In this document: in pieces, positions 45,927-48,683 of the stretch
Numbering within the stretch: position 1 is the stretch's first letter
How the letters are laid out: each line of letters starts with the position of its first letter
IMG/VR virus record: IMGVR_UViG_3300031951_000175
Span: 1 to 58,305 of that record
Strand: one strand, 5' to 3'
From: a virus
DNA: 58,305 nucleotides
Made by a program: the position numbers and the translations under genes
The notes under the pieces: model-generated
Told to the model about the DNA's origin: nothing
The model's database searches: none
Seen by the model: only the letters and a program-made list of their open reading frames with translations

Positions 45927-46451
45927 ATGAACTACTTACTTTTTGTATATTATAATTCTGAAGTAGAAAATTCAGAAGAAAAAACACAAGAAATCGGAAC
46001 ACAACTTGCAGAACATATGACTAGTGGTCAGGTTAAATTTATGTATGGAGATCGACATGCAATCTTCCATTTTGGATGTAAAAGTGATTTTAAAGATGTT
46101 GCTGATGTAGTATTCTTTATTTCCGAAGAAATACCGGGATTTGAATATCTTTTAACAAAAAAAGGTAGAGACCACAGTTCAAACTTTGATGAAGACAACC
46201 TTGAGCACTTAATGTCGTTAAAGAACACCACACCGAAGAAACATAAACCAGCGGCACCAAAATTAAGAACAAAAAATCTTGGTGATGGTGAAACGTTTTT
46301 GGATATTGCAGATCTTATTTTAAATCTAAAAAGAAAAGAAGTTTGTAATATGACTTTGGACGAACTATTAGATAAAATTAGTACTCAAGGTATGAATTCA
46401 TTATCTGAAGTTGAAAAACAAAAGTTAGACGAATACTCAAAATCACTTTAA
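45927..46451 (+). CDS. Hypothetical protein with Bacteroidota-type C-terminal motif
   Basis: A 174-residue protein. Residues 1-85 form an alpha/beta domain (MNYLLFVYYNSE, VKFMYGDRHAIFHFG, DVVFFISEE), 95-115 is a basic linker, and the last 35 residues (LDELLDKISTQGMNSLSEVEKQKL) strongly resemble a helical tail (DUF6576-like) found in Bacteroidota proteins such as rhomboid proteases. This fits the proposed host. The protein is in front of the sigma factor gene, separated by 9 bases, so it may be involved in transcription control, though nothing in the sequence proves that. Confidence 0.72.
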   Translation: MNYLLFVYYNSEVENSEEKTQEIGTQLAEHMTSGQVKFMYGDRHAIFHFGCKSDFKDVADVVFFISEEIPGFEYLLTKKGRDHSSNFDEDNLEHLMSLKNTTPKKHKPAAPKLRTKNLGDGETFLDIADLILNLKRKEVCNMTLDELLDKISTQGMNSLSEVEKQKLDEYSKSL

Positions 46452-46460
46452 CAAACATAT

Positions 46461-47261
46461 ATGAAAGACAAAAACACAGGGGCACCTATCAATCAGGATG
46501 AGATTTATCACTACCTTAAAGATATTAGAAAAATTAAGGTAATGACTGCAGAACGCGAACGTCATTTAGCCACACGAATGAAGTCGAATGATCTTACCTT
46601 GATTGAAAAACAACAAATTGAGGAAGAACTTTTAACAGGAAACCTACGTTTTGTAATAACAGTTGCAAAACAATATCAAAATCAAGGTTTAGATTTGTCA
46701 GATCTTATTGCAGAAGGTAATTTTGGTTTGATGAAAGCAATCAAGAACTTTGATTGGAATAAAGACTTACGTTTTATATCTTATGCTGTTTGGTGGGTTA
46801 AACAATCCATAATCCAATCTTTGAACGATAATTCGAGAACGATCCGTCTACCGGTAAACGTTGTCCAAGACTTACAAAAGGCTAAAAAGGAATTAGAGCA
46901 AACAGGAAAAAAACTTGACGACAAGTTCCAAACTTTACCATCTATCATAGATTTGGATATGAATATCAATGAAGACGGTGATACTTTGATTGATATGATT
47001 GAGAATAAAGACGCTGTAGCACCTGACGCTAGTTTTCACACAAAAGACATATTAAAAGATAAGTTAATGAGACTTTTAGATGTTTTGGATGAAAGAGAAA
47101 AAGTCATTGTAGGTGATTACTTTGGTTTAACAGGAACACCAAGAACATTGGAAGATATTGGATCTGACTTTGGTTTAACAAAAGAACGTGTTCGTCAAAT
47201 TAAAGAAAAAGCTCTTCGTAGACTTAGAAATGATTCTTCCGAATTATTTGATTATTTATAG
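46461..47261 (+). CDS. RpoD-like sigma70 family factor
   Basis: A 266-residue sigma factor. Region 1.2 (DEIYHYLKDI, 13-22), region 2 (NLRFVITVAKQYQNQGLDLS to RFISYAVWWVKQSI, 61-117) and region 4 with its helix-turn-helix (TLEDIGSDFGLTKERVRQIK, 229-248) are clear. It resembles the short primary sigma of Bacteroidota rather than T4 gp55. Region 3 is shortened: after RLPVN the helical element seen in host RpoD appears to be missing. This would redirect host RNA polymerase to phage promoters, possibly the TATTTAT motif (inference). The stop codon overlaps the first stem of the structured RNA. Confidence 0.9.
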   Translation: MKDKNTGAPINQDEIYHYLKDIRKIKVMTAERERHLATRMKSNDLTLIEKQQIEEELLTGNLRFVITVAKQYQNQGLDLSDLIAEGNFGLMKAIKNFDWNKDLRFISYAVWWVKQSIIQSLNDNSRTIRLPVNVVQDLQKAKKELEQTGKKLDDKFQTLPSIIDLDMNINEDGDTLIDMIENKDAVAPDASFHTKDILKDKLMRLLDVLDEREKVIVGDYFGLTGTPRTLEDIGSDFGLTKERVRQIKEKALRRLRNDSSELFDYL

Positions 47262-47398
47262 AATGGGTTGAACCGAGATTACCCATACAACTCGGCAGAA
47301 GGTGCCTGAAGTCACCAGGGTGAAACTCCCCAATTCTATCTATACGGTAGAATGAAATTACACTCCCCCACTGGTACCGGTGGGGGTTTTATTGTTTT
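47258..47398 (+). ncRNA. Structured RNA candidate with pseudoknot and switch-like stems, unknown class
   Basis: A GC-rich island in AT-rich surroundings. Possible pairings: P1 47258-47264 with 47333-47339 (7 bp); P2 GGGT 47265-47268 with ACCC 47281-47284; pseudoknot CCGAG 47273-47277 with CTCGG 47291-47295; P3 GGTG 47301-47304 with CACC 47313-47316; P4 GGG 47318-47320 with CCC 47328-47330. The 3' arm of P1 can instead pair with 47346-47353 (8 bp hairpin), so the two states exclude each other. A terminator follows. It could be a 3'-UTR-derived RNA, a stability element or a riboswitch-like unit. It matches no tRNA, tmRNA, hammerhead or other class that I know. Confidence 0.6.
47365..47398 (+). 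terminator. Strong Rho-independent terminator
   Basis: CCCCCAC (47365-47371) pairs with GTGGGGG (47380-47386) around an 8-base loop that can close one extra wobble pair, followed by a T-rich tract broken by single A and G residues. It ends the sigma factor/structured RNA transcript. Confidence 0.93.
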
Positions 47399-47459: not shown

Positions 47460-48683
47460 ATGAATAAAAAATTTTTACCCTGGTTTTTATTGTTTTGTGC
47501 TTTAGGATTGTCAGGGACTGCCGCTTATTATAGTGTTATAGGTTTATCAATAATTTTCTCAGCTGTTGCAATTCCTGTTATTATAATGGGATCGTTTTTA
47601 GAAATATCTAAACTTGCAATTGCAACCTATCTACACGACAAATGGAAAGAAACTTACGGAGTTTTGAAGATCTATCTTACAATGGCCCTTGTAGTTCTTT
47701 CAATTCTAACTTCTGTTGGTATCTACGGGTTACTTTCAACAGGATTCCAAAAAAATATTGCGGGTCTTGAAATTAACAATAAAGTAATTGAAAATATTGA
47801 AGTTAAAAAAACTCGATTCGAAGAAATCAAAACTGACTATCAAAAAGAGAAAAGTGTTTTGGACAAAGATATCACCAATTTAAGAAACGCCCTCTCAACT
47901 AACACAACTACCCAATCAATAGATAGAACGACGGGACAGGTCATTACAAGAGCAAATGGAGGTAATAGAAAGGCTTTTGAGACTCAGTTAAAAGTTGCTC
48001 AAGAGAATAGAGATGGAATATCAAAGAAAATTGAATCCCTTAATGATAGTATTACTAGATTAGATTTAGAAATATTAGATCTTGCTTCCACAGAAATTGA
48101 ATCAGGTGAGTTAGGTGCAATCAAGTATTTAAGTGAGATTACAGGTTGGGATGTTAAAAAAACTGCTAACTTTTTTATTCTAACTCTGATATTTGTGTTT
48201 GATCCTTTAGCAATTGCTTTAGTTATTTCTACAAACCAAGCATTTAAAATTTATAGAAGAAAAGATGAGGAAGAAGATAAAGTTGAAGATGAGTATCCTT
48301 TTTATGATGAGGTAGAAATACCTGAAAGTTATTTTGCAAATCATACCCCCCAAGTCACCCCCCAAGTCACCCCCCAAGTCGAACCTGAAATTGTTGAAAG
48401 AATTGTTGAAGTTCCTGTTGAAATTATTAAGGAAGTTGAAAAAATTGTTGAGGTTCCTGTGGAAGTTGTAAGAGAGGTTCCTGTTGATAGATTGGTTGAG
48501 GTTGTAAGAGAAGTTCCTGTTGAAGTGGTAAAAGAAATTGAGGTTCCTGTCGAGGTCCCCTTCAAATATTACGTAAACGATAATGGTCAAATATTTGATG
48601 ATCAGGGAAATGAAGTTGAAGAAAGATTGTTTAATAAAAAGTTAGAAGAGATTGAGAAGAGGGTTTTAAAATATCAAAAATAA
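47460..48683 (+). CDS. Polytopic membrane protein with coiled coil and Pro-Val-Glu repeats
   Basis: A 407-residue protein with hydrophobic helices at about 7-24, 27-45, 70-92 and 237-257. A long coiled coil (about 105-215) lies between the third and fourth. The C-terminal cytoplasmic or periplasmic tail carries three tandem PQVT units (12-bp DNA repeats at 48350-48377) and a VEVPVEVVREV-type repeat (about 307-369). The same repeat type occurs in the protein at 42.1 kb. It is first in a unit containing the endolysin gene and may be part of the lysis or envelope-modifying system; a holin role is possible but it is far larger than normal holins. Confidence 0.75.
   Translation: MNKKFLPWFLLFCALGLSGTAAYYSVIGLSIIFSAVAIPVIIMGSFLEISKLAIATYLHDKWKETYGVLKIYLTMALVVLSILTSVGIYGLLSTGFQKNIAGLEINNKVIENIEVKKTRFEEIKTDYQKEKSVLDKDITNLRNALSTNTTTQSIDRTTGQVITRANGGNRKAFETQLKVAQENRDGISKKIESLNDSITRLDLEILDLASTEIESGELGAIKYLSEITGWDVKKTANFFILTLIFVFDPLAIALVISTNQAFKIYRRKDEEEDKVEDEYPFYDEVEIPESYFANHTPQVTPQVTPQVEPEIVERIVEVPVEIIKEVEKIVEVPVEVVREVPVDRLVEVVREVPVEVVKEIEVPVEVPFKYYVNDNGQIFDDQGNEVEERLFNKKLEEIEKRVLKYQK

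Follow-up and report, generated by a model that had tools for sequence, protein, structure and literature searches.

The window analysed here is a virus record of 58,305 bases in which a small structured RNA lies between two protein genes, all of them on the plus strand. Its immediate upstream neighbour is a sigma factor gene (46461–47261, 266 amino acids, stop codon at 47259–47261) that matches PHROG 351, RNA polymerase sigma factor, with an E value of 3e-53. The downstream neighbour (47460–48683) is a gene here called ‘mem’, whose product fell into no clear family in family searches and is described as membrane-protein-like from its hydrophobic N-terminal part. The gene before sigma (45927–46451) has a DUF6576 domain at its end (Pfam, E 2.6e-12). 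Shortly 5' of several start codons in the window (9802, 21553, 27972, 47435, and 51649) stands ATATTTAT or TATTTATA, and TATTTATA is also found at 47253, in the last bases of the sigma gene and just 5' of the RNA; the two are possibly forms of a phage promoter motif.

The RNA is roughly 110 bases long and its conserved core (47263–47353) is made up of the P1 hairpin with a putative pseudoknot, followed by the hairpins P3, P4, and P5. The 5' half, that is P1 and a loop CCGAG matching a downstream CUCGG, is nearly invariant. Specifically, P1 (47263–47286) pairs AUGGGU (47263–47268) with ACCCAU (47281–47286) around the nearly invariant loop UGAACCGAGAUU. Among 57 distinct copies its four inner pairs do not vary, the pair 47264–47285 is A-U in 31 and U-A in 17, and the outermost pair is open in 20. 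The putative pseudoknot helix (47273–47295) would join CCGAG (47273–47277) to CUCGG (47291–47295), and is paired, but invariant, in all 57. Possible tertiary pairs (47296 with 47308 and 47297 with 47307) would connect the junction CRGAA with the loop of P3. P3 itself (47301–47316) reads GGUG-CCUGAAGU-CACC in the window and, in most relatives, has GAGA/UCUC or GGGA/UCCC stems with the loop CACGA. P4 (47318–47330) is GGG-UGAAACU-CCC, with a heptaloop of the UGAAAAU type that we take to resemble T-loops, and P5 (47333–47353) is AUUCUAUC-UAUAC-GGUAGAAU. An intrinsic terminator (47365–47390, CCCCCACUGG-UA-CCGGUGGGGG-UUUU), read and folded from the sequence, follows; its hairpin (47365–47386) is present and conserved, as are the two small hairpins P3 and P4, all three of which had been described in a first-pass annotation of this DNA.

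Patterns together with a covariance model place the RNA in at least 94 IMG/VR contigs besides the window. The core pattern matched 93 IMG/VR stretches, 90 of which were left once the unrelated L112, L125, and L141 had been removed, while the use of relaxed patterns and of the covariance model brought in L295, L298, L069 (the same as L332), and L333 among the matches listed. Model R1 gives 120 bits to the window, which is one of its own source sequences. The P4 hairpin sequence differs in two divergent groups (L082/L090 and L098/L124), from which the three members scored reach 68–82 bits, they also being among the model's sources; in the L098/L124 group the terminator-like hairpin starts about 58 bases further on. 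Along with L112, L125, and L141, the pattern matches L292, L293, L294, L296, and L297 were without the rest of the element and were dropped. All of these apart from L297 are short IMG/VR contigs that have in common a longer stretch with CCGAGATNACCC...CTCGGC, unrelated to the RNA. One further candidate copy, L300 at 19.7 bits, was judged to be chance.

The first-pass annotation could assign the RNA to no known family, and the Rfam check it called for bears this out: Rfam 15 gave no match at the gathering threshold in the window, nor did Rfam in eight relative loci. Matches at low thresholds were few and weak, none covering the core, and the Rfam results for window and relatives include no known self-cleaving ribozyme family. 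ARAGORN found no tRNA or tmRNA in the window or in five relative loci, and a search by DNA similarity gave no match in a phage isolate collection. In the literature searched, which included PMC8040213, PMC12197685, and PMC2864571, the RNA is nowhere described. We class it as a new family within a known kind, the structured RNAs borne by phages, which is not to say that it is proven to be unpublished.

Two ideas of a cellular source were also considered. A bacterial origin is rejected as far as tested, absence not being shown: with the covariance model and strict filters, 395 Bacteroidota genomes gave no credible copy and one weak match (27.7 bits), whose E value of 0.0024 per genome means that about one such match is expected by chance in 395. 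A scan of genome contigs with a loose pattern gave nothing resembling this RNA by eye among the matches listed. Antisense tRNA-Glu-like matches of the loose pattern gave rise to the idea that the RNA is complementary to, or copied from, host tRNA. This was rejected as well: the real 13–14-mers, conserved in the RNA, are present in 10 and 7 of 118 Bacteroidota genomes, and the backwards-read controls in 5 and 11; at the 11 loci of the first 13–14-mer pattern ARAGORN found no tRNA.

What makes a conserved structured RNA convincing is the set of relatives and not the fold of the window alone, which is only mildly better than that of shuffled sequence (z −2.03, with 9 of 200 shuffles equally good). 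The main alignment (A1) holds 57 distinct sequences from the 90 usable copies, L100, L133, and L163 being left out because their 3' end is too short. A second (A2) holds 33 selected copies, 31 of them hand-picked from the 57 and the others L069 and L333. In A1 the five-helix structure has standard pairs in 94.7% of cells as against 86.8% in column shuffles, and 141 cells in which both sides have changed as against 48.3, neither value being reached in any of 500 shuffles. When the partners are slid by 1–3 columns, pairing is at most 51.2% and such cells number at most 31. Both controls leave relatedness in. There is no excess in the number of pairs with any double-sided change (10, compared with 8.7 in shuffles, 112 of 500 being as high) or in further pair types (27 compared with 26.7). 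Divided by helix, double-sided changes affect all four pairs of P3, four of eight in P5, one of six in P1, and one of three in P4. The covariance analysis with relatives that the first-pass annotation had advised yields compensatory changes in P3 and P5 and in single pairs of P1 and P4; the annotation's central observation, a compact structured RNA after the sigma gene, holds with covariation in 57 distinct copies and recurrence in other IMG/VR contigs.

Mutual information is highest for columns of P5 and P3, and next also for a junction-to-P3-loop pair, columns 36 and 48, which is G-C in 41, A-U in 13, and G-U in 3 copies and so paired in all 57. We regard this pair as possible, relatedness being a confounder such that a few ancestral changes could account for the pattern. 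Unconstrained RNAalifold recovered P3, P4, the greater part of P5, and the helix of the pseudoknot, but matched the GGG of P1 not to ACCC but to the C-run with which the terminator begins; the three pairs of this contact are G-C in 49, 48, and 46 of the 57 copies and include no double-sided change. The hairpin with pseudoknot geometry seen in the first-pass annotation stands as far as P1 and CCGAG/CUCGG are present and conserved. The helix between the latter is invariant in A1, in part because the search patterns demanded its letters, and the lack of double-sided change there follows from a core that is nearly invariant. A pattern in which two of the five pseudoknot pairs were freed returned 87 stretches, equal in number to the earlier set minus six that misfit after CTCGGC, with no new contig among the 80 matches listed. 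In A2, the pseudoknot helix of L069 has one change from A-U to G-U and is still paired. The pseudoknot is consistent with these data, though covariation does not establish it. Were the element no functional RNA at all, its pairings would be due to chance and its end would be an ordinary terminator. The weak single-sequence fold score would agree with this, as would the closing stem, which pairs at chance level, but conservation and double-sided changes extend over many contigs, some of whose copies lie next to sigma proteins that share about 71% identity with that of the window, and we consider this explanation hardly tenable.

The closing stem (47258–47264 with 47333–47339) does not survive the comparison, as all seven of its pairs form in 2 of 57 copies and on average 3.65 of 7 are kept, which is also the value (3.65) obtained with shuffled partners. 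The hairpin at 47333–47353, which had been proposed as the alternative to this stem, is conserved as P5 (mean 6.58 of 7 pairs) in its own right. The pair of mutually exclusive stems is accordingly not a conserved feature, and the switch suggested on its basis is not supported, the closing stem being at chance level.

The surroundings of the RNA bear on the same question. Between the sigma gene and the ‘mem’ gene lies a variable cargo site, as judged from loci selected by either the sigma gene or this RNA. In 39 of 95 RNA loci the first protein gene to follow downstream is convergent and belongs to one homologous family, and a gene of this family (about 140 amino acids) lies within 1.5 kb in 41 of the 95, 39 being downstream of the RNA and 2 upstream. 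A second cargo gene, ‘itsafs’, is found in 15 RNA loci; 39 of the 95 have neither cargo gene nearby, and 81 have a ‘mem’ homologue within 1.5 kb downstream. With a convergent gene following so often, the RNA does not serve generally as a leader switch. For ‘mem’ in particular, a riboswitch or attenuator in its leader would suit the window and 48 loci (36 + 13 in all), where the order is RNA, terminator, and same-strand ‘mem’ with no cargo family between (one of them, L116, has another convergent ORF there), and the three-pair contact between the P1 GGG and the terminator C-run could act as an anti-terminator. Against such a leader function, besides the convergent genes, this contact is short, does not covary, and competes with P1, and the terminator stems vary in sequence among relatives. 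We therefore hold a leader function to be very improbable.

The convergent cargo protein has no family match. Its predicted structure (mean pLDDT 76.8) is weakly RelE-like: many of the higher-ranked structural matches (Z 3.8–4.7) are chains of RelE, HigB, YoeB/ParE, and RegB, the best RelE-type row having Z 4.7 over 77 residues with an rmsd of 4.5, in a range (Z under 8) that may mean merely a common arrangement. Ranked above them is an L,D-transpeptidase (Z 5.0); Foldseek returned nothing at E ≤ 0.001, and no type III toxin is named among the structural matches listed. Among 35 distinct 3' flanks of the convergent gene (two incomplete flanks being left out), 34 have a recognised RNA element, which is the present RNA in 27 (in one together with an element termed RNA D), RNA B in 5, and RNA D alone in 2; the 35th (L062) has a D-like element by eye. 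These flanks and the RelE-type rows are what would be expected if the RNA were a partner of small RelE-like proteins, an antitoxin-like or inhibitor RNA of a roughly type III-like kind that is sometimes an orphan. However, the cargo gene is about as common without the RNA (11 of the 28 loci examined out of 33 RNA-less sigma loci) as with it (41 of 95), so that neither gene nor RNA depends on the other. Moreover, the gene is convergent and not downstream in one operon, the highest structural match is not a RelE-type chain, and neither cargo gene is near the RNA in 39 of 95 loci. An antitoxin-like role is thus quite unlikely in our estimation. A broader proposal, which we find similarly doubtful, is that the site between sigma and ‘mem’ is a slot in which RNA-protein modules are shuffled, with several promoter-led RNAs (the present one and those termed RNA B, C, and D) each next to a small RelE-like or other cargo protein; the RNA would control such a protein directly or, as an orphan of antitoxin-like type, counter a host RNase; if true, this would amount to a new class of RNA-protein module in phages.

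Several other elements were seen at the cargo site. RNA B is a second promoter-led conserved sequence, with AGTAGAAGTG and complementary ends (L024:3831–4000, L025, L016:5159 onward, L038:5508 onward, and L075:5540 onward), situated 3' of the convergent cargo gene in phages where the present RNA is missing from that place. RNA C, a third such element with GTCGGGAAGCTTACT...GGGTTTAAA, occurs at L028:3985 onward, L025:4033 onward, L097, L100, and L123 (on the minus or the plus strand), where a promoter-like box comes first and is followed by the RNA, a terminator-like hairpin, and the ‘itsafs’ ORF, an arrangement that in our view resembles type III toxin-antitoxin loci. RNA D is a small promoter-led hairpin with terminator-like sequence, AGAACAACCAC, that faces the convergent cargo gene (L047:3971 onward, L072:4267 onward, and L152, with the D-like L062). 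Many proteins of both cargo families start with M-x-LL...(I/L)-x-E (L117, L098, L082, and others for the convergent family; L028 and L100 for ‘itsafs’), which we take to resemble the capsid-targeting leader of T4 internal head proteins, and by this analogy the cargo proteins may be packaged and injected.

Signals for transcription divide the loci. A TA..TTTG box that starts 19–31 nt upstream of the first GGG is present in 26 of 93 loci, compared with a shuffled mean of 1.5 (L132 and L165, with less than 60 nt upstream, were left out); the 26 represent 18 distinct upstream sequences, and 20 of them also have an upstream TTTG box. We take this to be a Bacteroidota-like −7 box, matching the Bacteroidota promoter consensus, and the carrier phages hence probably infect Bacteroidota. 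No such box was recognised in the window or in most sigma-adjacent copies. In 58 of the 67 boxless loci the stop codon of an open frame of at least 100 codons falls between 17 nt before and 1 nt after the first G. Promoter boxes at some loci and abutting stop codons at others point to two settings, one embedded in a 3' UTR and one apparently independent. Common to both is the 3' side, as 91 of 91 loci have a terminator-like hairpin with a T-run after the element, where 11.9 would be expected from shuffled sequence (L095, L100, L133, and L163 were left out, having too little downstream sequence). A TTG-started frame of about 11 codons crosses the 5' half and is kept in 22 of 24 distinct segments, its start being lost in 2; a short peptide encoded by the core is unlikely, and we read the frame as a side effect of the conserved RNA.

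If the element acted solely in cis, as part of a 3' UTR in which it protects or tunes the mRNA of sigma or of another preceding gene, there would be no separate RNA product. This would suit the 58 of 93 copies whose first G lies no more than 17 nt beyond, or 1 nt inside, the end of a long open frame, and it is conceivable for the sigma mRNA in the window and in most sigma-adjacent copies, where no promoter was recognised. It would also fit an RNA that follows several different upstream genes, and it has a precedent in the L17 downstream element as presented in PMC2864571. Such an element would have no need of a promoter-like box right before it, as in 26 of 93 loci, or of an invariant core, which a simple protective hairpin can do without, and in L107 and L152 the next upstream gene is on the opposite strand. 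We regard this cis-acting role as unlikely, if less so than the leader and antitoxin-like roles. The first-pass annotation had offered three functions, of which a stability element alone likewise leaves the copies with their own promoter-like box unexplained; a 3'-UTR-derived regulatory RNA is the best fit of the three, with the proviso that the RNA is only partly 3'-UTR-embedded.

The link to the sigma gene is close and patchy. Of 155 sigma relatives the best 80 were retained, and 47 of these have the RNA beside them, 44 found by pattern and three (L069, L070, and L071) by the covariance model, which was applied to all 36 pattern-negative loci. The other 33 records contain no credible copy elsewhere in the record (7 + 26 searched; records may be fragments), a single 19.7-bit match among them being judged chance. 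Given a presence as patchy as this, the RNA is dispensable. Each of 12 long RNA-carrying records has one copy. A quick tree built from 72 sigma proteins requires at least nine changes between presence and absence, six of them forced by well supported branches, and RNA carriers stand on both sides of the deepest split under a midpoint root, a distribution that would reflect old presence with losses, or else repeated gain. Seen from the RNA, 77 of 94 loci have a same-strand sigma gene upstream, at a distance of 3 nt to 2.9 kb, and several of the other 17 have little upstream sequence. Ten records without sigma in the locus were searched beyond it: the gene is about 1.8 kb upstream of the RNA in L087 and L158, 9–10 kb away on the opposite strand in L082 and L090, and absent from six (L128, L169, L098, L124, L156, and L163, the longest of 104, 92, and 54 kb).

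Based on the conserved fold and its surroundings, we now put forward, with reasonable though by no means full confidence, a mechanism in which the element is a small structured noncoding RNA gene, partly 3'-UTR-embedded, that acts in trans by binding a protein. In the window the RNA directly follows the sigma gene and co-transcription with sigma is thus probable; the RNA would then be cut from the 3' UTR, or its transcription would start inside the end of the sigma gene. In other phages we propose that it is driven from its own promoter-like box, and in each case the RNA would end at the terminator. The folded core, consisting of P1 with its pseudoknot, the T-loop-like P4, and the invariant purine-rich joints, would bind a phage or host protein in trans, and the variable stems of P3 and P5 would merely hold the shape. 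A core that keeps its letters while the stems beside it vary suggests that the RNA binds a conserved component of the infected cell.

Some features of this RNA recall known systems. Type III toxin-antitoxin RNAs such as ToxI contain a pseudoknot and form tandem repeats upstream of the toxin gene in one operon. The present RNA is similarly compact, with pseudoknot geometry and a terminator, and is sometimes near a possible RNase, but it has no tandem repeats (one copy per record, 12 of 12) and no consistent toxin gene, and its neighbour is convergent. The stable RNAs C and D of T4, small stable RNAs of a T4-like phage whose function is not known, can be likened to it by description alone, as small phage RNAs. 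GOLLD and ROOL RNAs are linked to phages and, like the present RNA, are structured noncoding RNAs whose function is not known. They are large, ornate, and homo-oligomeric, as reported in PMC12286853, whereas the present RNA is about 110 nt long and without an Rfam match. Two further cases come from PMC2864571. The L17 downstream element of Lactobacillales and Listeria is, like the RNA described here, a structured domain that belongs to a protein gene's 3' UTR; the present RNA differs in having no Rfam match and in also occurring with its own promoter-like box. The manA and wcaG RNAs, treated there as possible gene-regulatory domains and carried by T4-like cyanophages, are likewise phage-carried and known mainly from environmental sequences; unlike them, the present RNA often faces a convergent gene and again has no Rfam match.

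The essence of our proposal is a phage RNA whose core is held nearly constant within a covarying structure. To our knowledge, descriptions of phage noncoding RNAs that combine a covarying structure with a nearly invariant core are few, and those from Bacteroidota phages fewer still. Once a carrier phage is cultured, the function of this RNA can be tested with the help of the alignment, the covariance model, and the naturally occurring close relatives that have or lack it.
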